Positions 5,552-27,675 of a DNA stretch of 27,675 nucleotides are shown in pieces; within the stretch, counting starts at the first letter, position 1, and every line of letters starts with the position of its first letter. The translations under genes were made by a program, and so were the position numbers. Source of the DNA: a virus; the IMG/VR virus record IMGVR_UViG_3300040801_001052, positions 1 to 27,675 of that record; one strand, given 5' to 3'. Below the pieces are notes generated by a model. It searched no databases. It saw only the letters and a list, made by a program, of their open reading frames with translations, and was not told where the DNA came from.

Positions 5552-6408
5552 TGGAATATTCCTTCCACTTTTTCCATTTCGTTGTCGTAAGCCTCAACCG
5601 TTGTGGGCTGCATCTTCCAATGCTCGCACGTTATCGTGGCATCTATCCAGGGTTTTACGCCAACGTTATCTGCCAACTCACAGAAGTGATGATCTTCTGT
5701 GCGGCCATGCTCCAACAAATAATAGGGAAAGTTTCGATCATCTTCCGGGTCTTGAAGCACAACCCGCTCGCGATACTCTCCGTATTTCACAACTGGCTTT
5801 CGCCTCTTGTCATGCCGGTAAGCCTCTGGTAGTTTCACCTGGCTTTTATGTACCGGGAAGATCGAGCCATTGTATCTCATAAAGACCTTGTGTTCGTTTT
5901 TTATCCTTTGATAAACGGAGCGATGGATCAGAGTACACCCCATTCCAACGCTGTCTACCTCAAACACGCCGCCCTTGGGATAATTGTAAATAGGGTTGTA
6001 TAGATTTTCCGGTGTTCGTTTATAGGCAATGGGGTTGTATGGTTCTTGGGGAAGAAAATAAAGACCTGCTATAAATTCACGGCCAGCCTTAACCAGCCTG
6101 ATGATTGCATCTATTGGGGGAACGGTGTCGTCATCGATCCAAAAAATCCATTCAGCATCACCGTTCAAAAATCCCTCGTTCACGATGCTATTCCTGTTCA
6201 CATCCGTCAGGGACCAGCGCTTTTTTATCACGCCAATTTGATTGTTCTTTTTGCTATCTGGTAATGCGCCCGTGGCAGTTCTTAGCTGCCCGATGTCTAC
6301 CGTACCTTCCCTGAATGTATACATGATCAATCCCATTAATGGCCCCCACCAGTTTGGCGACTGTGCCGATGAACAGGCAACGGCAATATCAACAATCGGT
6401 TTACTCAT
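5548..6408 (-). CDS. GT2-like (GT-A fold) glycosyltransferase
   Basis: A 286-residue soluble protein with a WIDDDTVPP motif (Asp92-94), the metal- and nucleotide-sugar-binding DXD of GT-A enzymes. It is preceded by a helix of the N-S-I-V type and followed by FIAGLYF and VDSVGMGCTLIHRSVY, the acceptor-side elements seen in many phage family 2 glycosyltransferases. TEDHHFCE (237-244) and His263 supply the likely catalytic acid/base and metal ligand. No transmembrane segment was seen, so it differs from GtrB-type polyprenyl-phosphate transferases. It overlaps the zinc-protein stop by 8 bp (ATGAGTAA). The acceptor is unknown; virion proteins or a lipid-linked sugar used by the GT-C gene two genes downstream are inferences. 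Confidence 0.75.
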   Translation of the reverse strand: MSKPIVDIAVACSSAQSPNWWGPLMGLIMYTFREGTVDIGQLRTATGALPDSKKNNQIGVIKKRWSLTDVNRNSIVNEGFLNGDAEWIFWIDDDTVPPIDAIIRLVKAGREFIAGLYFLPQEPYNPIAYKRTPENLYNPIYNYPKGGVFEVDSVGMGCTLIHRSVYQRIKNEHKVFMRYNGSIFPVHKSQVKLPEAYRHDKRRKPVVKYGEYRERVVLQDPEDDRNFPYYLLEHGRTEDHHFCELADNVGVKPWIDATITCEHWKMQPTTVEAYDNEMEKVEGIFQ

Positions 6409-11800: not shown

Positions 11801-14800
11801 CTGTCTACGTCATCCAGCCGCTCTCTTACTAAAACGGGTAATTCAATTCCTTCCAAGGCATCGGGGTTAAATCCGTTGTCATCAAGTTGGTTTGTTAACT
11901 CGGTAACATATCTGTTCCATAATTCTGGATAATCCTTGGCGATAATCATTAATGCAATTGTGCGCCCATTCCCGCTCTCAACGACCATATCCGGGCCAAT
12001 AACCATCGGTCCGGTATCCGTTTCTCTTGTGTCTAACAACAGCTTAAATTCGTCAAAATTATTTATGATATCCCATATCTGCGTTTGGTTGCCGATAAGT
12101 TCCCTAAACCGTGCTTGCAATTCTTGGGGATAATTCTTGTTTTTAGTAAAGTCAGCAAAGTGACTTGTGATCAGGTCGGTTAAAGAAACAATCCTGAACC
12201 GCATATTAAATTTGTCTGGAAGTTTTACGCCCAACGCCATCGTTGTGTTTCCCGTAGGTGCGTGTTGCAGTTTTGCTGCCTGCGTCTGGCGGTAGTCCAT
12301 TACCTGCTCATCGAATAGCAACCCGTCATACAGGCGTTTCATTTCAGGTGAGATGTCTACAAGTTGCATATCTTTACCATCGTCTAAAAGTTTACTGACG
12401 ATTGTGGCGACCCAAGACTTGAATTTCTGAAAGATATTACGCATGGCTGGCGGTGCAACGTCAAGAGCCATACCCTCGTGTTGATACATTACAAAACCAT
12501 CTGCGAACTGTTCCTCTGCCGCCATATATCTTTTGTAGTCTGGCGTTCCCTCTTTTAGTTTGCCATCACGCCATGCCTGGTCCAGCGCAATGTAATCATC
12601 CACGCTATCAAAGCCAACCCAATTTGCATAAACCTCTATCTCGCCTGCGTCTAATTCGTACCTGAAAACATGTCCTATTTCGTGCAGCGCGTCAACTAGA
12701 TTTGCATCTTGAAAGCCCCTGATTATGTGCATGCCATTTTCAAGTAGTTCCGCTTCACCAACCACTCGAACCGTATCTCCGTATGCGTCCGTAATAACTT
12801 TTGAAACATCGCTGACCTCTATATCTGCAAATGTTTCAGCATAATAGCTGTCCGCACTCTTGCCCTCACGCTTGCCCCATATCTCGGCGTGTGCGTCCAC
12901 CAATGCCATAACAGCCGATTGCTGATCCCTGGTCAGGCTAAAGGCAGTCCTGATCTTATCTCTAAAAGCATTGCGGTTCATCACCGCATCCGCCCTAACC
13001 TGCTGTTGCTCGGCGGCTTCCTGTGAGCGCCTATTGATGTCGGCTTCGTTGTATTTTGCTACTTCGGCTGGATCGGCATTGTCGGCTGGTCGCCCATCAA
13101 ACAGCGATCCCTGACCCTCGCTTACCCGTGCAGCGTCTAACACCTGCCCAAGATTAGCTTTGATGTTGTCGGGGATGACGTACTCGCCTTCTTCTGTGCC
13201 TACCGCTACGATCATATCCAGGGCAGCCCTGACTCTTGATCCCTTTGCCTGCATTGCGCTGGATGCGTCAAACAGGTATCTCTGGACCATGTGGCGATCT
13301 GCGTCATCTGGATACAACTCCGATAGCATCATTGCCAGGAAGGTTCGTTCTTCTGTTGAGGCTACATAGTCATCTCCGTATTGTTTTGATCGTGCGTCTA
13401 AATCTATTCTTATAGCTTCTGCGCCGGGATAAACGGTTGCCGGTGGCGGTGTTTCCATCGGGATCACCACCCCTTGTTGCTCTGGTGTAGCAGCCTGTTG
13501 CCCCTGGTTGTTTTGCCACAACTTATATGCGCCATCGACCATTGCGCTGCGCTGTTGTGATATCAGCGGTGCAAAGGTTTCGGTGTTGAAGGTTTCAAAA
13601 GCCTGCCGTACCTCTGGTATAGAAAGCTCTGTGTTCCGCAAACTCTCTCTAAATTCTTTGACCTTGTTGGCGGCATCGTTCCAGGCTTTGATTGTTTCCT
13701 GCCCCCATGCCAACACCTCCGTTCCCGGACGGTGGCTGGTATCCTCATACACCTTCCCCAACTGCTCAAACATTTGGGTTAGCTGCCTGGTTTCTATTTC
13801 GGTGTGCCGATCATACATCCCGGCGATCTTTTCCTGTGTTGCCTTCCACAGCGATTCACGCTGCGGTCCCCTGACATTCGATTGGTAATACTTTTTCAGT
13901 TCTGCGTTCTTCTCAGTATAAAACCGCTCCCAATCCTTTATCCAGGCTGTCATCGTATTGACATAATCAACCGTGCCGGGATTATCTGATCCTAGCGCAT
14001 CAAACATACCCTTGGCTGTTGTCAGCATAATGGTGTGAGTGCGCCGCCAATCTGTTTCCGCCTCTGTTAATCTTGCCTTCCAAACCTGACGTGCCAAGTC
14101 CCGGTTGCCCTGTGAGCGGAGCGCATCTGATGTAGCCGCCGCAATTTGGTTGTCTACCAAATCCTTCATACGCCTGTTCGTGAACAGGCTCCACAGGTCC
14201 GACCACAAGGGCATCATCGCTGCCATGCCTTCTGATCGAATGCGGTTCGCAACATCATCCGGGATTGCCAGAATATCATCTGCAATAGCCTGCTCTATGA
14301 TAGCGTCTATCCGGCTCTCGATAAAGTCAAATGCGCGGGTGATATCGTCTTTTGTTTTTGCGCCTTCTAATTGGCTTTTTAGTTCTTCAATGATGCCAGA
14401 TTTAGTGATAATATCCCTGGCTTTATCCGGCTGGTTTGTGAACACCTGTTGTACCGCACGCTCCAATGTGCTTTCTACGCCCTGGAATTTCGACCTGGTG
14501 TACAGGCTGTTGGTGATCTCGTCCATATTCAAACCCTGGTTGACCAGCGAATAAATTAATTCCGGCGCACGTGGGTTGATGGTGCGTAATTGCGCCTCAA
14601 TCTCAGGCGACATCTTGTTATAACCAACGCCCTCTTTCCAGGTCTTATTCCATAGCTGTAAAAAGCCTATGGTTGTTGCCTGGCGGCTTTCTGCAATTTC
14701 AATTCTTGCAGCAAGTTTTGAAAATAATCCTAATTTTGATGCCTTCCTTCCAAGTTTGTGCATTTGGCTGATGAAGTCTTTGGTGTCCATAGCGGCTGCG

Positions 14801-17800
14801 ATAGCCTGACCGCCTCTGTGAGTGCCTGCAATATCAACCGCCGGTCCAACGCCCTTTTCAAAACCTGCTGGCTTTATGCCAATCCGATCCCAAACAGACT
14901 CAATCTGATTGGGGGTCAGAAATCCATATACGCCCTGCGCTGCACGTGTGAACACATTGTTCACGGCGTTATTGATAGCATACATTGGGTTGAAGCCTAA
15001 TACGGCTAACGATTGGAACGATTTTAGCGCCGCACTAAGCCTAAATTGCCAGCGTTTCGGCTGGATACCATAGTGATCAACCAAAAACTTATCCATAAAG
15101 ACACCCATTTTGCCGATAAGCTCTGCTCCGAACATATCTGGATGCCAGGGGACATAGTTTTTGCCCCAAAAGATTTCAAATCTCTTGGATAGGGTTTCTG
15201 CGTTAAGTGTTCCGTTGTTGATTGCCTCAATAAACGGCGCTAATTTACCGGATGGCGTGCCTTGCGATACATTTGCGATCATTTGTATAGCAGCGTCAGG
15301 GTTTGTGCGGACTTCTTCAAGAAAATTTGCCGCTTTCATCCCAACGGCATCGGCAATTGTGAGCAATTCGGTTCTAATCGGGGTTGTTGTCACCCAGTTT
15401 GCCAGCATTTGCTCAGGTAATTCACTTTTATAAAAGGCGCTCATCGCCGGAGCGACTGTTTTCCCGGCAGGCGAGTTGATCATAGCCTCCGCAACCTTGC
15501 CGGCAGTAACAGCATCGCCGCCAAGGGTCATTTGCTTTAATATACTGACCATACCAACGGGATCGTTGTCATAAAGGGACATCAATCCGGCGGTATTTGT
15601 GTAAGCCATATCAAGAAACAGCGCTGCCTGTGATTCTGGCGTTAGCTGCGCCAGCCGCCTGAACCAGCTTGTTGATTGGTTTGGTTGCAGCTCCGCATAT
15701 TGCCCATCGTCCGTCAGTTTTGCAAACTTTCGCTCCCAGTCGGATATTTCTGGATAAACCTTTACCACCTGTCCATCAACACCCGTTCTGATTTGCCCTA
15801 AAATACGCTCGTCCAGGTAGTCATCGAAGGCTTGTGTCAGGTTTCTGTTAAATTCTGCGTCCGTTTTACCGGGATTGTTTTGTGCTACATCCAGAAGAAC
15901 GTCATAAGCATCGTTTGATGCCTCCGTAATAATGGTTTGTATTTCCTGATTGGTTAGATCAATGTTTGCGTTGGTGAGTTGCGATTCTACGTATGCCCTG
16001 AAATCGTTGGTAAACCCATCCGTGTTGTAAGAAAGCACGCCGGTGTCCGCGTTTGCTGTGGCGTTATTGTTGATTATTGTTTTAATTTCTGTATCAGCGG
16101 TCAAAAATAGATCGGGACGCGCCATTTTCAAGGTCGGGTTGTCAACGGTCTGATCCAGCCAGTATTTATACGGCAGGTTCCCGTGGCGTAAATAATCCTT
16201 ATAAAGACCGAGCGTGTCGAATAAGCCAGCCGAACCAGACCTGCCTGTAATTTTGGTATACATCCTTTGAAAAGGCGCTGGCAATATATCTGCGTCAAGA
16301 TGTCCCTTTGTGCCGTCCACCGCTGCCCTAAAGTTTGGATTATTTGTGGCATCCGCTATCTTACCAAGGGATGCGTTGACAAGAGAAGGCGCTACTTGCA
16401 GAGGATCGAGAACGGATTGCAACATAAAATCGCCAATGTTGCCGCTATATCCAAAGCGGTCAATGTAATCAGCGTATACTTCGTGCATATCCTCGCCAGA
16501 AGCCAGGCGTGAGCGTGCCTGGTCGAGCGCCGCACCAGCCACCAGGCCCTCCCTGATCAATACTGGCTCTACGATGGCTTTTTCTAACGCCCATATTTCT
16601 GCGTTGTTTCTGGCAACTTGTCCGCTGGACCATTCAACGTCACCGCCCAGGGAATTTACAACCTTCTCCGCCGCCTGAAAACCTTTTGACATCCCGTTGA
16701 GCAGCCAGTTGCCAACCGGCAGCGATTCATACATAAATTGACCTGCTTGCCAGGCGGGTTTAAGGTTTTGTAATACCTCTTTGGTTTCTCCATCCGAGGC
16801 TTGAACAACGGTTCCGACAAGTTTTTCAAACATTTCGTCTGGAAGATCAAGAACGCGAAGAACGGTATTCAGCCCCCATATTTCTGTGCCTGTATAAGCC
16901 TGATAAGCGGCAGCGCCGCCAACCACTGCGCCAGCGACACCGCCAACAATAGCGCCGGCGGGTCCTCCTACCGCCACACCTGCTGTTGAGCCAATGGCAA
17001 TCAGCGCTTTTGAAACAGCCAGCGCGCCCATTGCCGCTTGTGCGCCCTGCACAGTTGCCGCCACACCCCTTGTCCAATCAGGTCGCCCTTCCATCGGTTG
17101 AGGATTGAGAAACGATAGCGCCCACTGCTGCCAGGTTTCCATATTTTCCCATGCGCCCTCTTGCATGAAGGGTGAGATTTCTTTTTGCTCACCCCCATAC
17201 ATCAACTGCATGAGTTTGTCGTGTTCTGTGGGTTGCAGGCTAGAAATATCAACAAGGCCGTTTTCATCAAGAGGCAGGCTTGATACCAGTTTTAACAGTT
17301 CGTCCGATTCATTGATCTCGCCGGGAAATTTGAAATCATTCGGCGGCTCAGATAGCGTGGTTAGATAGATGGCTGATGGATCGTCCCGATCAAACGGCTT
17401 CCAGGAAGCCCAGTCGCTCCCCTGAACGGCGGTCATGTACTCGTAAGCCTCTGCTATTTTATCGTAGTCATACCATTCAGGCGGCTGCCAGTCCTGCGGT
17501 GCGGTTGCGCCAAAGTAATAATACTTTGCCAGGCGCTTTGGGTCCTCTGCGAAATACGACTGGTTGGGATACTGCATATTTTTGAAGGTCGCATTAGACC
17601 ATTCTTCACCGAGAAGCTGGTAGTTTTGTTGCTCTGGCAACCCCTTTAATATCTGGTAATTCCAGAAGAACTTCTGTCCTTCCGGCAACTGCTCTCTTAG
17701 CTCACGAGTGGGCAGCACATAATTGAACCTGGTCTTTTTGAGAGGTTCTTTAGGCGGCTTGTATTCTGTCACCTGTTGAGGTAGCGCTTGCGGATTATAA

Positions 17801-17835
17801 AAGGGTTGTTCTTCTTGATCAGAAGTTGTGGCCAT
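8809..17835 (-). CDS. giant polyvalent protein (zincin protease + DdrB-like ParB), likely virion-packaged
   Basis: A 3008-residue protein read without a break over 9 kb. Visible parts: a Pro/Gln-rich N terminus; a glycine-zipper membrane-like segment around residues 260-318 (GGPAGAIVGGVAGAVVGG); long helical regions; a Gln/Pro-rich linker near 1450; and a metallopeptidase motif H1718-E-I-G-H1722 with Glu1774/1775 (EEQFADGF) as likely third ligand. A DdrB-like ParB domain follows at about 1870-2245 (LITSHFADF, V-V-E1953-S-G-N-G-R). The long helical C-terminal part resembles 'large polyvalent protein-associated' regions. Such multi-domain proteins are known from phages and conjugative elements and are thought to enter the cell with the DNA. 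The ATG shares one base with the stop upstream. It lies between portal and scaffold, as expected of an ejected core protein; this role is inferred. Confidence 0.8.
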   Translation of the reverse strand: MATTSDQEEQPFYNPQALPQQVTEYKPPKEPLKKTRFNYVLPTRELREQLPEGQKFFWNYQILKGLPEQQNYQLLGEEWSNATFKNMQYPNQSYFAEDPKRLAKYYYFGATAPQDWQPPEWYDYDKIAEAYEYMTAVQGSDWASWKPFDRDDPSAIYLTTLSEPPNDFKFPGEINESDELLKLVSSLPLDENGLVDISSLQPTEHDKLMQLMYGGEQKEISPFMQEGAWENMETWQQWALSFLNPQPMEGRPDWTRGVAATVQGAQAAMGALAVSKALIAIGSTAGVAVGGPAGAIVGGVAGAVVGGAAAYQAYTGTEIWGLNTVLRVLDLPDEMFEKLVGTVVQASDGETKEVLQNLKPAWQAGQFMYESLPVGNWLLNGMSKGFQAAEKVVNSLGGDVEWSSGQVARNNAEIWALEKAIVEPVLIREGLVAGAALDQARSRLASGEDMHEVYADYIDRFGYSGNIGDFMLQSVLDPLQVAPSLVNASLGKIADATNNPNFRAAVDGTKGHLDADILPAPFQRMYTKITGRSGSAGLFDTLGLYKDYLRHGNLPYKYWLDQTVDNPTLKMARPDLFLTADTEIKTIINNNATANADTGVLSYNTDGFTNDFRAYVESQLTNANIDLTNQEIQTIITEASNDAYDVLLDVAQNNPGKTDAEFNRNLTQAFDDYLDERILGQIRTGVDGQVVKVYPEISDWERKFAKLTDDGQYAELQPNQSTSWFRRLAQLTPESQAALFLDMAYTNTAGLMSLYDNDPVGMVSILKQMTLGGDAVTAGKVAEAMINSPAGKTVAPAMSAFYKSELPEQMLANWVTTTPIRTELLTIADAVGMKAANFLEEVRTNPDAAIQMIANVSQGTPSGKLAPFIEAINNGTLNAETLSKRFEIFWGKNYVPWHPDMFGAELIGKMGVFMDKFLVDHYGIQPKRWQFRLSAALKSFQSLAVLGFNPMYAINNAVNNVFTRAAQGVYGFLTPNQIESVWDRIGIKPAGFEKGVGPAVDIAGTHRGGQAIAAAMDTKDFISQMHKLGRKASKLGLFSKLAARIEIAESRQATTIGFLQLWNKTWKEGVGYNKMSPEIEAQLRTINPRAPELIYSLVNQGLNMDEITNSLYTRSKFQGVESTLERAVQQVFTNQPDKARDIITKSGIIEELKSQLEGAKTKDDITRAFDFIESRIDAIIEQAIADDILAIPDDVANRIRSEGMAAMMPLWSDLWSLFTNRRMKDLVDNQIAAATSDALRSQGNRDLARQVWKARLTEAETDWRRTHTIMLTTAKGMFDALGSDNPGTVDYVNTMTAWIKDWERFYTEKNAELKKYYQSNVRGPQRESLWKATQEKIAGMYDRHTEIETRQLTQMFEQLGKVYEDTSHRPGTEVLAWGQETIKAWNDAANKVKEFRESLRNTELSIPEVRQAFETFNTETFAPLISQQRSAMVDGAYKLWQNNQGQQAATPEQQGVVIPMETPPPATVYPGAEAIRIDLDARSKQYGDDYVASTEERTFLAMMLSELYPDDADRHMVQRYLFDASSAMQAKGSRVRAALDMIVAVGTEEGEYVIPDNIKANLGQVLDAARVSEGQGSLFDGRPADNADPAEVAKYNEADINRRSQEAAEQQQVRADAVMNRNAFRDKIRTAFSLTRDQQSAVMALVDAHAEIWGKREGKSADSYYAETFADIEVSDVSKVITDAYGDTVRVVGEAELLENGMHIIRGFQDANLVDALHEIGHVFRYELDAGEIEVYANWVGFDSVDDYIALDQAWRDGKLKEGTPDYKRYMAAEEQFADGFVMYQHEGMALDVAPPAMRNIFQKFKSWVATIVSKLLDDGKDMQLVDISPEMKRLYDGLLFDEQVMDYRQTQAAKLQHAPTGNTTMALGVKLPDKFNMRFRIVSLTDLITSHFADFTKNKNYPQELQARFRELIGNQTQIWDIINNFDEFKLLLDTRETDTGPMVIGPDMVVESGNGRTIALMIIAKDYPELWNRYVTELTNQLDDNGFNPDALEGIELPVLVRERLDDVDRVIFAEDANQRRTGGMSVLENAFVDAGKWEPELLGEINIARTNDIYTALRIDKNEAIVQSFLDKTPAAEKNQMIDAFRKLSTDGTKRIIASLYAYLFPGEKGKQIVHMFAESTSPATIKNLRNAIDNALPELAKLESKVRSGTTMPEMSLSQDIADVVMAHVTVTNRYGSYAEFQKHWELSPTIFGESYVDIGLIEPNTPDNVRQFKVDLFHFFAENTRKTEPQTQFFKMYVEKVLEQPQYMANQIEIFPVDRTPKHIIASEIFQTLVNEKISYPFEGYEKPAGPTLFQTRAIGDTPLAGTPVPMYEGRITEEAYTETLSPLLKTMREIALSDMDSGQAFSLGDIPEGLNDEVNMWLTSLPEQMAGTKLASMRYGEMMRDRSLLNYQERYNIDDYLNIVFPYQFWFTRSMGEWAKRMVERPSWFSMYARIRRHQERMEEEGIPSRLKGKFRIPAEWLPDFMGNALYIDPLSQIFPFTQFAAPFDRMAQTGDNVQYAAVQKVQQYVAEEKLTATQAKQIIDTKEGEIWQMALAEAQTEMQQSGDLTGMSLASMMMSPAMWWTYPYHMLKGTPEKLYPLPGTRTGQALRSLGGPLGVIGNIMALPEETIRRKFNLSAYGEWGDYYIDRTLANMATEGYPVKDVMVAMIERQGELFEEAYQRVEQEMALKIPGSQTALAIKEGKFGAIPYTLLTTLFPAGLLPEGELIQRGLKYEYGKAWDDYKNGNPAAINEFFDKHPEYQARLALFDEPEERMRQFLVSEIWERWTLLENKNKPLVVDQLGENFERMFLDKNTRDYTAVDQETLAYWARLLGGYVPQTEETSGVSNIPLYQQENLKLYRPDVIAQVEDFQAQRDEQFPNYKFLQTTYFDLPEDPKSVRREFLAEYPELTEYWDWKDNYYDKYPLVKSYQDEQAKRYEDNQEIYTSAQGMDIPTSQSVALQAISENEPAMLMQMLFAYYSGQDVSGGARSMLRAMWESMGYPGGSFEEWSTEVLKQIAR

Positions 17836-21201: not shown

Positions 21202-22035
21202 TTAAATTCCTTCCATTCCGATAAACGGATTTCTTACGATTTGTTTGTATTTTCTAAACTTATGCGTTACGGACGGTGCTGTATAGTTGCTGAGCGCATA
21301 ACACAGAGCGTCATAGGCATGATCCGATTGGTTTGGCAGCGGTCTTTCTGGATGATCCGGATCGGTCATCAAGCCTTCGATTTCTGCGATAAGATTTTTG
21401 CAGGTGCTAAAAATTTTCATTCCAGGTTGACCGTCATGGATATCGCCGAGCGCCTGCCGGATGCGCTGTGATTTTCTCTGCTGGTTGTTATCCGCTTTTG
21501 TTAATAATATTTGGTGTTCGATAAATACGTCATAAGTGCTTTTGGCGATGATGTCAACGCTGCGTTTGGTCCAGACGGACGGATCGGCAAAGGAGAATAT
21601 AAAGCGCTCGTTGCGCTGTGTGATATCGTTGATCATTTCCGCCTGTTGGGGATCGGTCAAGCCAGCTTCGTACATCTCGTTGTAGACAAACAGCCTGCCC
21701 GTGGAAGGCTCTTTGGCGATCCACAGCATGCAGGCGGGGGCAGCGAACCCCCAGTCATACCCTCGAAAGCGTGTCCAGGTGCGGGGGATGTCAAAGGGTT
21801 TGACCACATGGCGGTGATAGGCAAACTCTGAAAGAAATTGACCTGCGAACACGGACCAGTCGCCTTCGAGCAAGGCACGTGCCAGGTGTTCGCCCTGGGC
21901 ATACAGGCGTTCCCGGTAGCCGGGGTCACGTTCTTCCAGCAGGGGGTTATCCTCTAAAAACGCCGGCAGGAACACCGAATCAATCATGCGGTGTTCTGGG
22001 TTCTCAACGGTCTTGACTGCTGGCAATTCACTCAT
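21202..22035 (-). CDS. terminase large subunit, nuclease part (separate gene)
   Basis: A 277-residue protein carrying the RNase H-like nuclease half of a terminase. It has a short linker with DSVFLPAFLEDNPLL, GDWSVFAGQF, then D94 in RGYDWGFAAP, D151 in FADPSVW, and D242 in DHAYDALCYAL, the acidic triad that cuts concatemeric DNA during packaging. The ATG (22035) overlaps the stop of the ATPase gene as ATGAGTGA and has its own AAGGAT ribosome site 7 nt upstream. That supports a true two-gene split with coupled translation. A +1 frameshift or an assembly error would be the alternatives. The longer open frame up to 22200 is antecedent read-through in the ATPase coding region. Confidence 0.8.
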   Translation of the reverse strand: MSELPAVKTVENPEHRMIDSVFLPAFLEDNPLLEERDPGYRERLYAQGEHLARALLEGDWSVFAGQFLSEFAYHRHVVKPFDIPRTWTRFRGYDWGFAAPACMLWIAKEPSTGRLFVYNEMYEAGLTDPQQAEMINDITQRNERFIFSFADPSVWTKRSVDIIAKSTYDVFIEHQILLTKADNNQQRKSQRIRQALGDIHDGQPGMKIFSTCKNLIAEIEGLMTDPDHPERPLPNQSDHAYDALCYALSNYTAPSVTHKFRKYKQIVRNPFIGMEGI

Positions 22036-22771
22036 CAGCGCGATCCTTGATATCGTAAACCTTCTTGTACCACATGTGGCCCACGCCGCCGGGGTTAGTA
22101 GACATAATTGCAAAGGGTTTGGGTAATTTACTGTGACCGCTGATGCGGTTACGGGTGAGCAGGTAGCGGATGATGGACCAGGTGAAGTGAGTGGCCTCAT
22201 CGATCATCAAGATATCAAAGGCGGCTGACTGGTAATTGATCACATCGCTTTCAAACTGGCAGTGGCAGAAGCGCAATGCGGGTGCTGTGCCTTCGTTCCA
22301 ATCCTCATCGCCCTTATCGCCAAAGCGCCAGACGTGGGATGCCTTGTTATACTTGCCCCCGATTTTCGGAAAGAGGTACTGCGCCCTTTCGATAGGACCG
22401 TCCGATCCTTCCAGTTCTGTAAACTTACGCCTGAAATAACCGATCTTTACACCGGGGACCTGGTGGAGCGCAATCAGGGCTGCGCCGATCATGCCCTCTG
22501 TCTTTCCTCCGCCGGCAGCGCCTCCGTAGCCGATCAAGCCGCATACAGCGGGTTCTACCTCTTTACCATCCAGCGCCTTATGCAATCCACAAAGCTGTAA
22601 TAGATTTAGCTGCTTGGGCTGCGGTTGCCAGATATCACTCGGTATCTGTTTCGTCTGTTTCAGATACGTTTGTACTGTTTCCTGATCCCAGGTTGGCCAC
22701 AGGTCTGGCCTCCGCAACGATGGCGGCAGGTTCTTCTTCGTGGTTGGCTGTGAGGATTGAGAGAATGTCAA
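22028..22771 (-). CDS. terminase large subunit, ATPase part (separate gene)
   Basis: A 247-residue protein with the packaging ATPase half of a terminase. It has an adenine-binding W-Q-P-Q-P-K-Q motif (about residues 48-54), a Walker A YGGAAGGGKT (82-91), a Walker B FDILMIDE (185-192) and the coupling motif MSTNPGG (223-229). It stops at YDIKDRADE, just where the nuclease domain would begin. The start codon is TTG at 22771, supported by a strong AAGGAG 6 nt upstream inside the small-subunit gene, giving an unusually long 137-bp overlap with that gene. It pumps DNA into the procapsid through the portal encoded two genes downstream. Confidence 0.85.
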   Translation of the reverse strand: MTFSQSSQPTTKKNLPPSLRRPDLWPTWDQETVQTYLKQTKQIPSDIWQPQPKQLNLLQLCGLHKALDGKEVEPAVCGLIGYGGAAGGGKTEGMIGAALIALHQVPGVKIGYFRRKFTELEGSDGPIERAQYLFPKIGGKYNKASHVWRFGDKGDEDWNEGTAPALRFCHCQFESDVINYQSAAFDILMIDEATHFTWSIIRYLLTRNRISGHSKLPKPFAIMSTNPGGVGHMWYKKVYDIKDRADE

Positions 22772-23105
22772 GTCTTACTCCTTCCGTTTGGATACGGGCC
22801 TCTTTGAGCAGGTCGAGATATGTAAATCCGCTCACGTCCAGTTTACCATCTCTCTCAAATTCCCTGGCGGCTCGCTTGATCTGCCTCATGCGCTCCGCCC
22901 TGCTGGCAAGTCCGTATATCAGCGACAGGCGATCCACTTCTTCGGCAAAGTCCTCGTTTTGCGTCCAGCGGGTTATCGTGCTTGGGTGAACATCAACCTC
23001 CCTGGCGACCTCAGACTTGGCATAACCCTCTGCCAGCATTACCGCTGCGTGCGATTGTTGTTCAGACCAGACGATATTCTTTACGATTTTGCTTCCGCTT
23101 GCCAT
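22635..23105 (-). CDS. terminase small subunit
   Basis: A 156-residue protein with an N-terminal helix-turn-helix (about residues 15-50: AVMLAEGYAKSEVAREVDVHPSTITRW, written here as two helices around the V-H-P-S-T turn). A helical oligomerisation region follows, and the C terminus is disordered and acidic (SETDETDTE). This is the plan of phage DNA-recognition subunits that start packaging. It lies directly upstream of the large subunit. The ATG shares its A with the preceding TAA stop; AGAGGA gives the ribosome site. The last 137 bp also encode the start of the ATPase in another frame. Confidence 0.75.
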   Translation of the reverse strand: MASGSKIVKNIVWSEQQSHAAVMLAEGYAKSEVAREVDVHPSTITRWTQNEDFAEEVDRLSLIYGLASRAERMRQIKRAAREFERDGKLDVSGFTYLDLLKEARIQTEGVRLDILSILTANHEEEPAAIVAEARPVANLGSGNSTNVSETDETDTE

Positions 23106-23419
23106 TAGATGTCCTCTAACCTGGCCGGTGTGATGCCGGCGCTTTCAAGCTGCGACACCAGCCGCTTTGCCCATTTGCGATAGCGCACAATCTCGCTGGC
23201 TAACTCGCCTAGCTGCACGGCTGTGTCACGTTTGTATTCTTCAAGCTCTCTCTTGATCGCCCTGTTCTCGCATTCAAGATCACGAACCGTTTGAAAAAGC
23301 GATGCGATGGTGTCAGCGTCTACTTTGTTCTCGTCGTGGGTTTGCCGCTTGATTGAAAAGTACAGACTGACTGCGGATGCCAGAAACGCCAATACCATAA
23401 TTGCTTTGTCTACGGTCAT
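23105..23419 (-). CDS. membrane-anchored coiled-coil protein, spanin-like
   Basis: A 104-residue protein with one N-terminal transmembrane helix (about residues 5-22), then a charged heptad-rich coiled coil (about 35-90). This topology resembles inner-membrane spanins of the Rz type, which help break the outer membrane, though no outer-membrane partner lipoprotein was found. It stands between two likely holin-type membrane proteins and terminase. The ATG shares a base with the preceding stop; the ribosome site is weak, so coupling is likely. A packaging or membrane-tethering role is also possible. Confidence 0.45.
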   Translation of the reverse strand: MTVDKAIMVLAFLASAVSLYFSIKRQTHDENKVDADTIASLFQTVRDLECENRAIKRELEEYKRDTAVQLGELASEIVRYRKWAKRLVSQLESAGITPARLEDI

Positions 23420-23712
23420 TATTTCAGCCGCCTTAGTTCGTGAAGTGTCACAAATGCGCCGCTTGCGACAAGGGATATCGTGACCAGGATACCTGAGCGC
23501 ACAAAGATTTGATGGTCAGGAAACGACCAGCCAAATGAAGCACGAAGCAGAGAATAGGAATAATAAGCCGCCCAGTATAAGCCCATGATGCCAAGCCCGC
23601 ACTTGATCCAGCGCATACGGTAGCGTGACACCTGCTTAAACTCGGCATAAGCCATGAGCAAGCCAGCGATAACAATGGCTATTTTCTCTAGCTCGTAAAA
23701 CACGGTCCACAC
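23419..23712 (-). CDS. small membrane protein, possible holin or antiholin
   Basis: A 97-residue protein with three hydrophobic stretches (about residues 10-22, 38-58 and 70-90) separated by short basic loops, and a basic C terminus (HELRRLK). This fits a small three-pass holin-like protein but there is no family signature. The start is GTG at 23712, 4 bp after the stop of the preceding gene. Together with its two neighbours it forms a membrane-protein cluster at the head of the late operon. Confidence 0.45.
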   Translation of the reverse strand: MWTVFYELEKIAIVIAGLLMAYAEFKQVSRYRMRWIKCGLGIMGLYWAAYYSYSLLRASFGWSFPDHQIFVRSGILVTISLVASGAFVTLHELRRLK

Positions 23713-23716
23713 AGGA

Positions 23717-23905
23717 TCACTGCCTGCTCAAACCATCTTCAAGCGCCGTACCCATGATGTATGACACAAGAACGATCACCAATGCCAGGATTTGATCTTC
23801 TGCAATGGGGAAGTCCGGCACAAAAGCCTTGACGATCACCATCACCAAACCAACTATGGCTGCCCAAAATTTCCTCGATCCTAACAACAGTTTGAATTTA
23901 TCCAT
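23717..23905 (-). CDS. small holin-like protein
   Basis: A 62-residue protein beginning MDKFKLLLGSRKFW, with two hydrophobic helices (about residues 12-28 and 36-52) joined by a short Pro/Asp turn (FVPDFPIAED) and a polar C terminus. This is the plan of small two-pass phage holins. The ATG at 23905 is chosen because AAAGGA lies just upstream; a longer frame starting at 23977 would begin inside the leader hairpin. It is the first gene after the late promoter. Confidence 0.55.
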   Translation of the reverse strand: MDKFKLLLGSRKFWAAIVGLVMVIVKAFVPDFPIAEDQILALVIVLVSYIMGTALEDGLSRQ

Positions 23906-23935
23906 TATGCGTCCTTTCAATTGTGAATGATTGTC

Positions 23936-23975
23936 GTCCCCCGGCATGATGCAGTCACTCACCATACCAGGGGAC
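23936..23975 (-). ncRNA. 5'-leader hairpin of the late transcript
   Basis: On the minus strand the arms GTCCCCTGGTATGGTG (23975-23960) and CATCATGCCGGGGGAC (23951-23936) can pair over 16 positions, 13 Watson-Crick and 3 G-U, around an 8-nt loop (AGTGACTG). From the promoter at 23989-24017 the transcript would start near 23982, so the hairpin lies within the first 10 nt of the mRNA. This is typical of a 5' stability element, though a regulatory structure or protein-binding site is equally possible. It ends about 30 nt before the first start codon. No independent transcript is implied; the type is the nearest available. Confidence 0.65.
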
Positions 23976-23988
23976 ATACCTAGTTTTT

Positions 23989-24017
23989 ATTATATCATAC
24001 CTTTTTTACCTTTACAA
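23989..24017 (-). promoter_or_regulatory. main leftward (late) promoter
   Basis: On the minus strand TTGTAA (24017-24012), exactly 17 bp, then TATAAT (23994-23989) with an extended -10 TG one base before it. The -10 is a perfect consensus. It reads into the membrane-terminase-portal operon. The nearest GTAACG repeat starts 33 bp upstream of its -35, so a protein on the repeat array could readily act on it. Confidence 0.75.
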
Positions 24018-24049
24018 CATTTCCGATACCCTTCAACTTATTTTATCTT

Positions 24050-24120
24050 GTAACGTTTCTGTAACGTTTCGTTACGGAGTCTTGTAACGTTTTGGTAACG
24101 TTTCTGTAACGAATCGTTAC
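24050..24120. repeat. GTAACG repeat cluster A
   Basis: Five copies of the half-site GTAACG on the plus strand at 24050, 24061, 24084, 24095 and 24106, spaced 11, 23, 11 and 11 bp. There are two inverted copies (CGTTAC) at 24070 and 24115. The pairs form two 15-bp palindromes, GTAACGTTTCGTTAC (24061-24075) and GTAACGAATCGTTAC (24106-24120). The 11-bp step is close to one helical turn, so bound proteins would line up on one face. It fits an iteron or operator array. Confidence 0.9.
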
Positions 24121-24123
24121 GTA

Positions 24124-24174
24124 GATTAAGATATAGATATAGATAAGATAAGATAAGATATATAAATTAAAAAA
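24124..24174. repeat. AT-rich segment with AGATA repeats
   Basis: A stretch of over 80 percent A+T made of ATAGAT and AGATA units in tandem (24131-24160), then TATAAATTAAAAAA. It lies between the two GTAACG clusters, where a DNA-unwinding element would stand in an iteron origin. No ORF or promoter core on the usual spacing was seen. Confidence 0.7.
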
Positions 24175-24185
24175 GGGGATCATCA

Positions 24186-24218
24186 TTTATCGTTCATTCT
24201 ATGTTTTTATCGTTCATT
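24186..24218. repeat. TTTATCGTTCATT direct repeat
   Basis: Two identical 13-bp copies, at 24186-24198 and 24206-24218, 20 bp apart, between the AT-rich segment and cluster B. The spacing is near two helical turns. The CGTT core resembles part of the GTAACG half-site complement (CGTTAC); the second copy runs straight into ACGATTAGTGTAACG. Confidence 0.7.
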
Positions 24219-24227
24219 ACGATTAGT

Positions 24228-24321
24228 GTAACGTTTCTGTAACGTTTTGGTAACGTTTCGTTACATACCTGCGTAACGTTTCGTTACACTATCCTGTAAC
24301 GTTTCGTAACAAAAACGTTAC
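24228..24321. repeat. GTAACG repeat cluster B
   Basis: Five plus-strand GTAACG copies at 24228, 24239, 24250, 24273 and 24296 (steps 11, 11, 23 and 23 bp), a variant GTAACA at 24306, and inverted CGTTAC copies at 24259, 24282 and 24316. Two perfect 15-bp palindromes GTAACGTTTCGTTAC lie at 24250-24264 and 24273-24287, the same word as at 24061 in cluster A. The order TGTAACGTTTT then GGTAACGTTTC is also shared with cluster A (24083 and 24238), so one cluster probably arose by duplication of the other. Confidence 0.9.
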
Positions 24322-24687
24322 ATCATTTAGTTTTAATCTTAATAATCCGATACCTTTTTGTTTTATTTGACTGTGATATTTTAGAACTGGGAATTTTCAG
24401 ATGTTAAAAATTGGGGCGGTGGATGGAACCAACACATCAACCACAACCACAAACGACTATCCCCCCTACCCAACTACCACCTACCTCCGATATGCATATA
24501 TGTTCTCATCACACACGCTCACACCCAGGAAGGAAGGCATCACACCCACGCACGCACGCACGCAGCAGCAGCGCGCACACGGTCACGCATCCAGGAAGAA
24601 AACAGATCAAAAAATAGTTTATGAGAATAAGTATTTTCAAAAGCTATCATCAAACCATGCAATCCATCGCGCAAACTGCACGATCTA
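24322..24687. other. non-coding low-complexity stretch
   Basis: No credible gene is seen. An open frame from 24401 gives a Thr/His/Pro/Arg low-complexity product without a ribosome site and is taken as chance. The first part is AT-rich; 24420-24480 is C/A-rich and nearly free of G; 24548-24572 is a short tandem repeat. The stretch separates the repeat array from the early promoter. Confidence 0.6.
24548..24572. repeat. tandem microsatellite (ACGC)4(AGC)3
   Basis: Four ACGC units (24548-24563) run straight into three AGC units (24564-24572), then GCGCGCACAC. Simple repeats of this kind are uncommon in compact phage genomes and may vary in length between isolates. Confidence 0.8.
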
Positions 24688-24709
24688 AATGTGACTGGGT
24701 AGTCACATT
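24688..24709. promoter_or_regulatory. 22-bp perfect palindrome, possible operator
   Basis: Arms AATGTGACT (24688-24696) and AGTCACATT (24701-24709) around GGGT. No T-run follows, so a terminator is unlikely. It lies about 190 bp before the early promoter and could bind a dimeric regulator. The TGTGA/TCACA halves recall CRP sites but the centre is 8 bp, not 6. Confidence 0.5.
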
Positions 24710-24755
24710 GCAATTAATGTAGGGCTTCCTGGTTGGGATATCCTCCTGGGTTGGC

Positions 24756-24785
24756 GTGATTTTTTCGACGATTGCAAAAAATCGC
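24756..24785. other. inverted repeat with T6/A6 arms
   Basis: GTGATTTTTT (24756-24765) and AAAAAATCGC (24776-24785) pair over 10 positions with one G-T, around a 10-bp loop. The arm nature (T-run and A-run) makes a simple terminator unlikely. It may be a bent or cruciform-forming site near the early promoter. Confidence 0.45.
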
Positions 24786-24819
24786 AGTGTTTACACCCAC
24801 CCGGCCACATGCTGCCACG

Positions 24820-24895
24820 TTCCAACCTAACCAACCTAATCCCAACTATTCCAACCAAATTCAAACCAAACCCTAACTATTCAACCTTAAAACAT
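24820..24895. other. 76-nt G-free, C/A-rich tract upstream of early promoter
   Basis: From 24820 to 24895 the plus strand has no G. It is built of CCAACC, CTAA and CAAACC units, some in tandem (CCAACCTAA at 24822 and 24831). The tract ends 1 bp before the -35 of the early promoter. Strand bias this strong suggests a site for single-strand binding, priming or transcript structure avoidance. Confidence 0.65.
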
Positions 24896-24896
24896 G

Positions 24897-24925
24897 TTGA
24901 CAAGTGTACCGTAATAGTGTATAAT
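24897..24925 (+). promoter_or_regulatory. rightward (early) promoter, full consensus
   Basis: TTGACA (24897-24902), exactly 17 bp, then TATAAT (24920-24925): both hexamers and spacing are perfect sigma-70 consensus. Transcription would start near 24932, leaving a leader of about 34 nt with AAAGGA before the ATG at 24966. It fits an early promoter used by the host polymerase at once on infection. Confidence 0.85.
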
Positions 24926-24965
24926 GATATCAGTTCAACCAGTCACTAATGAAAGGATTTTTACA

Positions 24966-25490
24966 ATGACCCGCCAAACAATCACCAAATTAAACGTAAG
25001 CACGCAAGACCCCTCAAAGCAAGAGGAAATAGAATACATCCAAGAGATAGCCTCGAGTATACCGGACGGCGCATATCTCAAGGGGTTATTCACTGATGAA
25101 TTTATCGGATGGGTAGAACGCAAGATTAAAGACGATTGGACGCTCGACATATTAAACGATCTTGAGCATTATATAACACAAGCAAGCAAGGCAGAGCAAG
25201 CATTTAGAGAATGTCAAGAGAACGCAAAGCGCGATTTCAAATGTTACGAAGATCATATCGAACAATTAAAGCAAGAGATAGCAACCATCCACAAAAACAA
25301 AGATCGAAGATTTAACCAAGTTAATGAGCAGTATTCAAACACATGGAACAAATTACACGAATTAAGGAATGAGTACGCGCGGACGTGTAATTATCTAGAG
25401 GATGCAAGCGCAAAGATACAAGAGCAATCACTTGAAATATTAAAGCTCAAAGCCCAAATGTTTGATATGAGTCAAGAGAGAGAGAGTTAA
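24966..25490 (+). CDS. early coiled-coil protein, unknown function
   Basis: A 174-residue protein with a mixed N-terminal part (residues 1-60, KQEEIEYIQEIASSIPDGAY, then FTDEFIGWVERK) and a long helical, heptad-like region from about 70 to the end that should form a coiled coil. No family is recognised. The start at 24966 is chosen over an in-frame ATG at 24924 because that one overlaps the -10 box and would not be in the transcript; AAAGGA lies 8 nt before the chosen ATG. It is the first gene of the rightward operon, a place often used for host takeover factors. Confidence 0.75.
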   Translation: MTRQTITKLNVSTQDPSKQEEIEYIQEIASSIPDGAYLKGLFTDEFIGWVERKIKDDWTLDILNDLEHYITQASKAEQAFRECQENAKRDFKCYEDHIEQLKQEIATIHKNKDRRFNQVNEQYSNTWNKLHELRNEYARTCNYLEDASAKIQEQSLEILKLKAQMFDMSQERES

Positions 25491-25492
25491 CC

Positions 25493-25594
25493 ATGTATCA
25501 ATCACGCACGTACAATCAAACCAAGCACGACATAAGGCGCAAGCTCAAATCACTACGGTCTAAAGCACGCAAGCAAGCAAGGCGGTTAAAATGA
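25493..25594 (+). CDS. 33-residue basic protein
   Basis: A very short frame coding MYQSRTYNQT followed by a Lys/Arg-rich helix; 13 of 33 residues are Lys or Arg. The ATG lies 2 bp after the preceding stop, behind a run of GAGAGAG that can serve as ribosome site. The TGA overlaps the next start as ATGA, which supports translation. Nucleic-acid binding is a reasonable guess from charge alone. Confidence 0.5.
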   Translation: MYQSRTYNQTKHDIRRKLKSLRSKARKQARRLK

Positions 25595-25824
25595 TCGCTC
25601 AATTAGATATCTTCACGGGTGAGCCGGTAACACAACCCACCCAACCCAAACCAAACCAGGAACCAGCAGCACAACAACGGAGCTTATTCACCGTAGAGGA
25701 TGCGCCTTTATTCACTGGCAAGGCCCAAACCGTAACCCTACCGGATGTATCAAACCTCCCGGTAATGCGTCAAGACTGGCGCACAGGAACCAACCCAAAC
25801 CAAGCCACAAAGAAAGGACAATAA
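25591..25824 (+). CDS. small disordered protein with two sliding-clamp-binding-like motifs
   Basis: A 77-residue Pro/Gln/Thr-rich protein, probably unfolded. It has QLDIF at residues 4-8, a close match to the bacterial beta-clamp-binding consensus QL(S/D)LF, and QRSLF at 29-33, which fits the looser Q-x-(S/D)-L-F form. The two are joined by a Pro/Gln linker. Proteins with such motifs bind the DnaN clamp cleft; a phage protein with two could block or borrow the host clamp. It is translationally coupled to the 33-residue gene (ATGA). Function is inferred from the motifs only. Confidence 0.6.
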   Translation: MIAQLDIFTGEPVTQPTQPKPNQEPAAQQRSLFTVEDAPLFTGKAQTVTLPDVSNLPVMRQDWRTGTNPNQATKKGQ

Positions 25825-25828
25825 TATC

Positions 25829-26152
25829 ATGACACAAGAAACAAATTATAACACTCGTGAAACTATGCTTTGGCTCGACAATGAGCAGGGAAGTTATAAC
25901 GCCTTCGTAGACTACACCGAGGAATTACTCGAAAATGATCTCCGAGGCTATGAGATCGCTGACGCGCTCAAAGAATACTTTGAAGAAATGTATTCAGTTG
26001 ATGAGGTATACGATAGCTTACCATCCGGACCGCTTCAAAGCCTGTTTAACTTTGCCGTTGAACAAATCGACTGGTATGAGATCGCTGATCATTACATCGA
26101 CATTGTAAACGATAACCGCCGTTACAATAACGAGGAACCATTCGACATATAA
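25829..26152 (+). CDS. acidic protein of a widespread uncharacterised phage family (DUF7249-like)
   Basis: A 107-residue protein with the pattern N-T-R-E-T...L-W-L-D-N-E-x-G-S-Y-N near the start, then two helical blocks each ending in (W)YEIAD. I recall this pattern from many phage genomes, where it is unnamed or called DUF7249; the name is from memory. It has 26 Asp/Glu against 5 Lys/Arg, a net charge near -21. AAAGGA lies 9 nt before the ATG. The strong acidity would fit a DNA mimic, but no such function is shown. Confidence 0.65.
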   Translation: MTQETNYNTRETMLWLDNEQGSYNAFVDYTEELLENDLRGYEIADALKEYFEEMYSVDEVYDSLPSGPLQSLFNFAVEQIDWYEIADHYIDIVNDNRRYNNEEPFDI

Positions 26153-26168
26153 CCAAACCAAGCGCCCC

Positions 26169-26191
26169 ACCGGGAGGCCTTGTATCCCGGT
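26169..26191 (+). other. intergenic hairpin before zinc-finger gene
   Basis: Perfect 7-bp arms ACCGGGA (26169-26175) and TCCCGGT (26185-26191) around a 9-nt loop. It ends exactly where the AGAAAGGA ribosome site of the next gene begins. No T-run follows. It may tune translation of the zinc-finger protein or mark an mRNA processing point. Confidence 0.6.
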
Positions 26192-26203
26192 AGAAAGGAC
26201 ATC

Positions 26204-26380
26204 ATGAAAACTAAACACAAACACTACACGATTGAAAACCGGACCGAAGAAACTTATTGCCACTTGTGCGGGATGCCTTTAATTGAAGGGGACCGGGTCT
26301 ATTATGATGATGAATGGGGTCCTTCGTTCTGCTGCCCCTCGTGCCTGGATCAACACACCTTGGAGGAAGCAAAAGCATGA
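26204..26380 (+). CDS. small zinc-finger protein
   Basis: A 58-residue protein with C19-x-L-C22 and C44-P-S-C47 pairs, 21 residues between, typical of a treble-clef or zinc-ribbon fold (YCHLCGMPLIEGD ... FCCPSCLDQH). The ATG at 26204 has AGAAAGGA 4 nt upstream; a TTG in frame at 26180 lies within the hairpin and is not used. The stop overlaps the start of the membrane gene. The partner, nucleic acid or protein, is unknown. Confidence 0.65.
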   Translation: MKTKHKHYTIENRTEETYCHLCGMPLIEGDRVYYDDEWGPSFCCPSCLDQHTLEEAKA

Positions 26381-26472
26381 GCAGAGAATTATGCTACGTC
26401 TTATTTATCCTGATGGTATCCATAGCCCTGTTCGTTTGGCTGGATGACGTTCACCTGCCCCCGGATGATTAG
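26377..26472 (+). CDS. 31-residue single-pass membrane protein
   Basis: A tiny frame, MSRELC followed by a hydrophobic helix (YVLFILMVSIALFVWL, residues 7-22) and an acidic tail (DDVHLPPDD). The ATG overlaps the zinc-finger stop as ATGA, with GGAGGA 9-10 nt upstream. Orientation should place the acidic tail outside. Small early membrane proteins of phages often affect host envelope or superinfection; this is inference. Confidence 0.55.
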   Translation: MSRELCYVLFILMVSIALFVWLDDVHLPPDD

Positions 26473-26488
26473 AGAGAGAGGTTAACCA

Positions 26489-26743
26489 ATGATCAAAACA
26501 TTAGCAGACCTATTAAAAGCAGAAGCGAAGCACGTTAATAATGGATTTTGTTACAGTACCTATCCTTATGCGTGTTGTATTGACGAAGCACTCATTGACG
26601 CGAAGCGATACAAAGCCCCGACAAACCCAACCATTACCCGGATTGACAACGACAAAATCACAGAAACAACAATCGAACTTAAGCCCCTGCCTGGCAGCCG
26701 TAAGCGCAAACCATTCACAATCACGCTGTACTGGTGGAAGTAA
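26489..26743 (+). CDS. unknown early protein
   Basis: An 84-residue protein with an N-terminal helix (IKTLADLLKAEAKHV), two Cys residues in YACCIDEAL, and C-terminal strands (TETTIELKPL, KPFTITLYWWK). No family is recognised. AGAGG lies 7 nt before the ATG, in a GAGAGAG-TTAACC leader like that of the 33-residue gene. Confidence 0.6.
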   Translation: MIKTLADLLKAEAKHVNNGFCYSTYPYACCIDEALIDAKRYKAPTNPTITRIDNDKITETTIELKPLPGSRKRKPFTITLYWWK

Positions 26744-26747
26744 ACCA

Positions 26748-26945
26748 ATGACCAAAGGCAGCGCAATAAAATACATGGTAACGCACGGACTGAGCAGTGA
26801 TGAGGCGCATAGGGTGTTTAATTATTATCTAAAGAATAAGATCGTCAAGTATAACGCGCACGATGGCTATACCTTAACCCATGGTCGGTACTTTGATCGC
26901 GATGTCCTGGTCAAAGCCGCATTAGTTTCAGAAACGGAGGCGTAA
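26748..26945 (+). CDS. small helical unknown protein
   Basis: A 65-residue protein (MTKGSAIKYMVTHGLSSDEA...). It has two helices followed by a strand-turn region (KIVKYNAHDGYTLTHGRYFD), which might form a small winged-helix-like or HTH-like unit, but no family signature is clear. The ATG is 4 bp after the preceding stop with only a GGAAG ribosome site. A longer frame from 26541 overlaps the preceding gene and is rejected. Confidence 0.5.
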   Translation: MTKGSAIKYMVTHGLSSDEAHRVFNYYLKNKIVKYNAHDGYTLTHGRYFDRDVLVKAALVSETEA

Positions 26946-26946
26946 C

Positions 26947-27216
26947 ATGAAAGTATATAACGATGTAATACCAGAGGTAATCGCAAATAACATAGGCAAT
27001 TATATTGCCTTTGGAGGTTTGGGAATTGTTGACGGGTTGAAGTTAATGCGTGATCGATCCTGGCTGTATAAGATCATCAGCATTGATGATGATGGCTTAC
27101 ACTGTAAAAGATATGGCCGGCGTAAAGGCAACGTCTTACCACCATATAACTTTAATCAAGGCTGTATCATCGTGACGCAGGCTGACTATAAGCTGATCCC
27201 ACCGCCAAGGTACTAA
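26947..27216 (+). CDS. unknown early protein
   Basis: An 89-residue protein with an N-terminal helix-strand part (VIPEVIANNIGNYIAFGG), then a strand-rich C terminus with basic YGRRKGN. No family is recognised. GGAGG lies 6 nt before the ATG, and the gene starts 1 bp after the previous stop. Confidence 0.6.
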   Translation: MKVYNDVIPEVIANNIGNYIAFGGLGIVDGLKLMRDRSWLYKIISIDDDGLHCKRYGRRKGNVLPPYNFNQGCIIVTQADYKLIPPPRY

Positions 27217-27219
27217 CCC

Positions 27220-27471
27220 ATGACCCTAAACAATAAAGCCTCACGGATTGAATCGTCATTGCTAACCAGGTTGATGACCGCATCAGGTCATGAGCATGCA
27301 GTCATCAGCAGCATGATTAAAGTTTATCGTGATGGAGGGATGCCAGCTAAACGCTGGCTATCCCTCTTTGACACCAACCAGGTTGACCGGATCATTCAGT
27401 CTATACCAGAAGGAACCAACCCGGTTAACATAAGGATAATTTTAAGGAGTGAATATATATGGCAACTCTAA
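27220..27471 (+). CDS. small helical unknown protein
   Basis: An 83-residue, mostly helical protein (ESSLLTRLMTASGHEHAVI, KRWLSLFDTNQVDRIIQSI). No family is recognised. The ATG lies 3 bp after the upstream stop with a weak AAGG site. Its last 13 bp overlap the next gene, so the two are probably translated together. Confidence 0.5.
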   Translation: MTLNNKASRIESSLLTRLMTASGHEHAVISSMIKVYRDGGMPAKRWLSLFDTNQVDRIIQSIPEGTNPVNIRIILRSEYIWQL

Positions 27472-27665
27472 CACAAACAAGCATACGAATGAGCGAACAA
27501 ACCAGGCGCAAAATTGATGCGCTGATTGCAGCAGGTCACAGCGGGACCATCACGGGCATACTGGCGCTGGCCGTTGATCGACTGTATGAAGATGAGATGG
27601 TGCGCGGTAACGTGCGCCAGATATCAACTAAACCGGGGTGGCAGGTATTCCCGGATCAGAATTAG
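27459..27665 (+). CDS. ribbon-helix-helix DNA-binding protein
   Basis: A 68-residue protein whose first 45 residues fit the RHH (MetJ/Arc) fold: a polar strand TQTSIRMS, helix A EQTRRKIDALIAAG, a turn, and helix B TITGILALAVDRLYED. Such dimers bind DNA through the strands and often recognise repeated short sites. AAGGAG lies 9 nt before the ATG. It is the only clear DNA-binding regulator in the early operon and could be the one acting on the GTAACG array, but nothing here proves it. The frame ends 10 bp before the window edge, where AGAGAGGA looks like the ribosome site of the next gene. Confidence 0.65.
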   Translation: MATLTQTSIRMSEQTRRKIDALIAAGHSGTITGILALAVDRLYEDEMVRGNVRQISTKPGWQVFPDQN

Positions 27666-27675
27666 AAAGAGAGGA

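Follow-up and report, generated by a model that had tools for sequence, protein, structure and literature searches.

The window analysed here, an entire viral record of 27.7 kb (27,675 nucleotides), carries between its two transcription arms an array of short phased boxes with the consensus GTWAC (W = A or T), which is very probably an iteron-type origin used by an initiator of the replisome-organiser type encoded elsewhere in the genome. This reading is drawn, at the level of sequence, from the layout of the array, its conservation in four relatives and an association of the box with a family of initiator genes.

Layout and genomic setting of the array

GTAACG occurs in the array ten times on the plus strand (at 24050, 24061, 24084, 24095, 24106, 24228, 24239, 24250, 24273 and 24296) and five times on the minus strand (at 24070, 24115, 24259, 24282 and 24316), which matches exactly the ten direct and five inverted copies given for positions 24050 to 24321 in the initial annotation. 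The four 15-bp palindromes recorded there are exact, and two clusters do flank an AT-rich core (Table 1), which has a GC content of 15% between positions 24127 and 24167. The steps of 11 or 23 bp hold for the direct copies; when the inverted copies are included the steps become 10, 11 and 13 bp, the step of 23 bp being the sum of 10 and 13 bp. The array is real and far beyond chance. The whole window contains 22 copies of GTAACG, compared to 8.4 (sd 2.9, largest 16) in 100 dinucleotide shuffles. Positions 24050 to 24321 hold 16 GTWAC boxes, seven in cluster A and nine in cluster B, and a 600-bp region with these 16 boxes contained 2.4 (sd 1.4, largest 8) in 1000 shuffles; in 100 shuffled windows the maximum in any 272-bp stretch was five.

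The array had been placed between a leftward and a rightward transcription unit, and it is indeed located in a 1-kb non-coding region between the two arms. The leftward arm encodes an SU10-type capsid protein, the portal and, as two separate genes, the large terminase; the rightward arm carries small early genes. The array is flanked by the gene of a small membrane protein and by an early gene for a coiled-coil protein. A promoter-like site of the leftward unit lies approximately 35 bp from cluster A, with a similar promoter at the same spot in relatives. The same non-coding region also contains an imperfect palindrome (GAAAATACTTATTCTC, 24615-24645) and a C-run (24450-24470; GGGGGGATAGTCGTTT on the minus strand), both of which are recognisable in the related contigs L007 and L012; L009 has the palindrome and a diverged C-run.

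The two large terminase genes (21202-22771, minus strand) comprise an ATPase ORF at 22028-22771 and a nuclease ORF at approximately 21202-22035, a split that is kept in L007, L008, L009, L012, L013 and L014, several of which have an extra ORF of 60-70 amino acids in between. A third of the contig is taken up by a single ORF of 3008 amino acids (8809-17835, minus strand), and an ORF of 2639 amino acids is found between the corresponding modules of record G002.

No initiator gene is present within the 27.7-kb window, which ends before one. The last 5.7 kb (22000-27675) gave no DNA match in the phage collection and no DNA similarity to a named phage, and no prophage carrying the portal was detected in the cellular genomes searched. 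The cumulative GC-skew minimum, which had been suggested as a check, falls at position 26724 in the window and not at the array (in the relative G001 it falls at 6160). An AT-skew minimum is found near the array, but it simply tracks gene direction.

Table 1. Features of the array and its surroundings in the window
Feature	Position	Strand	Remarks
Small membrane protein gene	23717..23905	-	First of the leftward unit; conserved array neighbour in relatives
Sigma-70-like promoter, leftward packaging/structural unit	23989..24017	-	TTGTAA-17-TATAAT, TG before second hexamer; consensus match only
Iteron cluster A	24050..24120		7 GTWAC boxes at 24050, 24061, 24071, 24084, 24095, 24106, 24116; steps 11/10/13/11/11/10; palindromes 24061-24075, 24106-24120
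AT-rich core	24121..24180		TATCT/AGATA repeats; candidate DNA-unwinding element
Spacer, core to cluster B	24181..24227		Two 13-bp direct repeats TTTATCGTTCATT at 24186 and 24206
Iteron cluster B	24228..24321		9 GTWAC boxes at 24228, 24239, 24250, 24260, 24273, 24283, 24296, 24306, 24317; palindromes 24250-24264, 24273-24287
Perfect sigma-70-like promoter, rightward early genes	24897..24925	+	TTGACA-17-TATAAT; consensus match only
Ribbon-helix-helix-like (RHH) protein, 68 aa	27459..27665	+	About 3.1 kb from the array; rival candidate binder

Conservation of the array in relatives

Eight related contigs were found by searches with the portal. Conservation in relatives had been named beforehand as a check of the array, which proved to be present at the same place in four of them (L007, L008 and L011/L012; portal 65-76% identical). 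The arrays of L007 and L011/L012 consist of two clusters and a TATCT core, and that of L008, which is cut at the contig end, of one cluster beside the core; the TATCT repeats are kept in L007, L008, L011 and L012. The word itself drifts, with L007 retaining GTAACG and L008 and L012 having mostly GTAACA, and the orientation of the boxes flips among relatives from GTAAC-5-GTTAC to GTTAC-5-GTAAC with the 10/11/13 steps unchanged. This conservation of spacing over orientation points to a protein that would read GTWAC as a unit. The conserved unit is better read as this 5-bp near-palindrome than as GTAACG.

The array is absent from L009, L013 and L014. A DNA methyltransferase gene (L009:2539-3519) is located in L009 where relatives carry the array. 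The RHH protein of the window was tried as the binder of the array and rejected: homologues occur in array-less relatives, and searches of Pfam, PHROGs and PDB gave nothing specific.

G002 has the same packaging/terminase module as the window and lacks the array, and its record shows no conspicuous cluster of GTWAC. Its initiator is a Phage_rep_O protein (6.7e-14), and its origin-like element (L021:14500-14611) consists of four 25-bp inverted-repeat iterons inside the Phage_rep_O gene, with an AT-rich stretch after them. G002 represents a natural swap, in which the origin appears to have changed along with the initiator.

Association of the box with replication initiators

Viral contigs were scanned for four GTWAC boxes at steps of 10/11/11 or 10/13/10, which yielded 69 and 17 stretches, respectively, compared to 4 for one control word of the same composition; as several matches share families, the independent cases are fewer than the raw count. 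Many of these loci carry arrays far denser than the scan pattern demanded, at G+C contents ranging from 31 to 66%. Among 115 proteins, comprising the G001 initiator described below and 114 proteins encoded beside arrays, phrog_3926 (replication initiation) was the PHROG matched most often; primases, helicases, further initiators and DnaD-like loaders came next, and Pfam matches were obtained to VapE, Prim-Pol, AAA_25 and Phage_rep_org_N. Most members of a group of related viral contigs (L030, L041, L047, L048, L050, L062, L072, L073, L075, L078, L082 and L088; hereafter the L062 group) have a fixed array pattern of 10, 11, 11, 43, 8, 13 near a small-terminase-like gene, with no obvious initiator beside the array, and in L034 the array is located between the small and large terminase genes. 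In cellular genomes, 102 stretches match the four-box pattern (many in Clostridia, some in Bacteroidota and Chloroflexota; loci L129-L208), and a weak initiator-like ORF overlaps the array in six fetched cellular loci.

As the window is without an initiator gene, its partner is inferred from one relative, the best-covered one, G001 (the 24.5-kb contig of L012), which encodes a 219-aa protein matching phrog_3926 (2e-7) approximately 9 kb from its array. AlphaFold predicts a confident winged-helix N-domain for this protein, and its Foldseek matches, which have weak E-values, are to MarR/ArsR/CRP-like structures. Used as a query against array-side ORFs, it retrieved L102 (3e-30), L074 (1e-23) and L086 (4e-11); L117, which comes from the same phage as L102, scores above the Pfam threshold for Phage_rep_org_N. 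An iterated profile extended this to 13 loci, in all of which the initiator gene overlaps the array or lies at most 63 bp away. When initiators found through arrays were left out of the profile, an array was still found within 100 bp in seven of seven loci, compared to a mean of 1.7 under random placement, with seven of seven reached in none of 10000 placements. In the 13 loci, the boxes are often located in the linker after the winged helix, where they code for VT peptides. The linker of the G001 initiator contains no boxes, the array of G001 lying elsewhere, and near the G001 initiator gene there is no second array but only a 15-bp coding repeat.

The association was also followed in the reverse direction. 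An alignment of six initiators was too diverse for scanning, and 18 records were fetched by initiator similarity with a two-sequence query (the G001 and L102 initiators); G010 (L102/L117) cannot be counted as independent of the arrays because the L102 initiator was part of this query. Triple-box arrays were present in 7 of the 18 records, in 5 of 16 when G001 and G010 are set aside, and in 0 of 18 in the backwards control; the other 11 records are without an array, several of them being fragments. Near the gene, GTWAC ranked first of 32 palindromic pentamers in 6 of 17 records besides G001, including L117. Furthermore, exact 15-mers of the window recur in otherwise unrelated phages, namely GTAACGTTTCGTTAC in G009 and G010 and GTAACGAATCGTTAC in G009 and G016. 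Origin word and initiator family co-vary across the loci and records compared.

Proposed function and alternative explanations

We propose that the array serves as the theta-type replication origin of the phage. A phage-encoded winged-helix initiator (replisome-organiser/O-like), whose gene would lie in a stretch of the genome that the contig does not cover, would bind the GTWAC boxes of both clusters. As the boxes are about one helical turn apart (10, 11 or 13 bp), bound initiators would be expected to stack along one face of the DNA and to bend it. The stacked initiators might open the TATCT-repeat core between the clusters, and a helicase loader and the helicase would then load at the opened core. 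A second role is conceivable, in that bound initiator may also influence the leftward promoter, which is approximately 35 bp from the array. The initial annotation had proposed a replication or partition origin; replication is strongly supported by the relatives, the two-way gene association and the origin of the Streptococcus phage Sfi21 (see below), and partition is not. Counted against an origin are the lack of an initiator gene in the window, the GC-skew minimum away from the array, the absence of the array in 11 of the 18 initiator-fetched records, the location of the arrays near terminase genes in the L062 group and L034, the five phages without an array of the box listed in the next section and the differing steps of the Sfi21 origin.

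It is very unlikely that the array is instead a cooperative operator, coated by the RHH protein or by the Xre-type HTH protein of G001, which would repress or activate the leftward late and perhaps the rightward early promoter. The array does lie close (approximately 35 bp) to a good promoter of the leftward unit and separates two divergent units, the window and G001 have few early genes in common, the RHH gene being one of them, and a near-palindromic GTWAC box with free orientation would suit a two-fold symmetric RHH dimer. However, homologues of the RHH protein are also encoded in the array-less G002 and L013, and the same is true for the Xre gene; an operator does not need a two-cluster plan around an AT-rich core, and the arrays that this box forms in other phages are found within or next to initiator genes. 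The predominance of replication genes over terminase genes beside arrays of unrelated phages likewise argues against a pac/cos region upstream of the terminase genes, in which a small terminase ring would wrap DNA carrying one box per helical turn. This possibility, which we consider even less probable, is consistent with the start of the terminase genes approximately 1 kb downstream of the array in the window family, with the array between the two terminase genes of L034 and with the small terminase gene nearby in the L062 group; yet G002 has the same terminase module without the array, and the origin region of Sfi21 is a separate element.

The parC site of plasmid R1 consists of 11-bp repeats in two clusters, which the array resembles, and an RHH gene is present in the window. 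A role as partition centromere for a plasmid-like prophage, with the RHH protein binding as ParR does to its 11-bp repeats, is nevertheless the least credible of these readings: no ParA/ParM-type gene (partition NTPase) is found among the early genes of the window, the contig being truncated, the RHH gene and the array are not consistently together (they are about 3.1 kb apart in the window, and the RHH gene also occurs in the array-less G002 and L013), and in other phages the box tracks replication initiators.

Breadth of the array and comparison with known systems

The origin type itself is already known; what is new here is how widely GTWAC arrays occur among unrelated phages. We tentatively suggest, at a little short of an even chance, that GTWAC boxes at about one helical turn constitute a general origin code of many unrelated phages with different initiators (winged-helix replisome organisers, Prim-Pol/VapE primases, AAA helicases), by common descent of an origin-binding domain or by strong convergence, and that origins could be recognised from the sequence itself. 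For uncultured phages the origin is almost never known, and a short phased box could predict it; a box that also ties a family of initiators to the word they bind would allow origin finding and initiator specificity to be tested in thousands of phage genomes.

A search of the literature on GTAAC or GTTAC iterons gave nothing relevant. The initial annotation knew of no named phage system with this repeat word; the annotated origin of Streptococcus phage Sfi21 (AF115103), however, contains 11 GTWAC boxes in 298 bp, the next most common pentamer occurring three times, and this element is an independent origin (PMC6356513). Like the array of the window, it is non-coding (a 302-bp element), and its GTWAC boxes flank a long AT-rich core. 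Its steps are 8, 13, 23, 44, 46 and 76 bp as opposed to 10, 11 and 13 bp, and it adjoins a putative primase gene, whereas the array of the window is located at the early/late junction and not next to a primase gene; the related initiator gene of G001, approximately 9 kb from the array, also differs from this layout. In Streptococcus phage Javan393 and Listeria phage vB_Lmo_C2, the gene annotated for replication initiation carries GTAACG/CGTTAC boxes in its linker, and the encoded proteins (replisome-organiser, Phage_rep_org_N-like) are related to the array-linked family. We infer, beyond their annotation, that these genes may hold the origin; their boxes are coding and few, in contrast to the larger non-coding array of the window away from an initiator gene. 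No array of the box was found in 80alpha, TP901-1, Tuc2009, 7201 and A118, where the annotated origin or rep gene was searched, and the word is thus common but not universal.

The lambda ori in gene O shares with the array its iterons and an adjacent AT-rich stretch, but it belongs to a different initiator family and has long iterons inside the initiator gene, which is the type found in G002. In layout, the array also resembles PICI/SaPI origins. These are located 3' of pri-rep in satellites without structural genes, whereas the window derives from a tailed phage with capsid, portal and terminase. PICIs have been described as the only known replicons with two iteron sets around an AT core (PMC6092414), and the array of the window would extend this plan to tailed phages.
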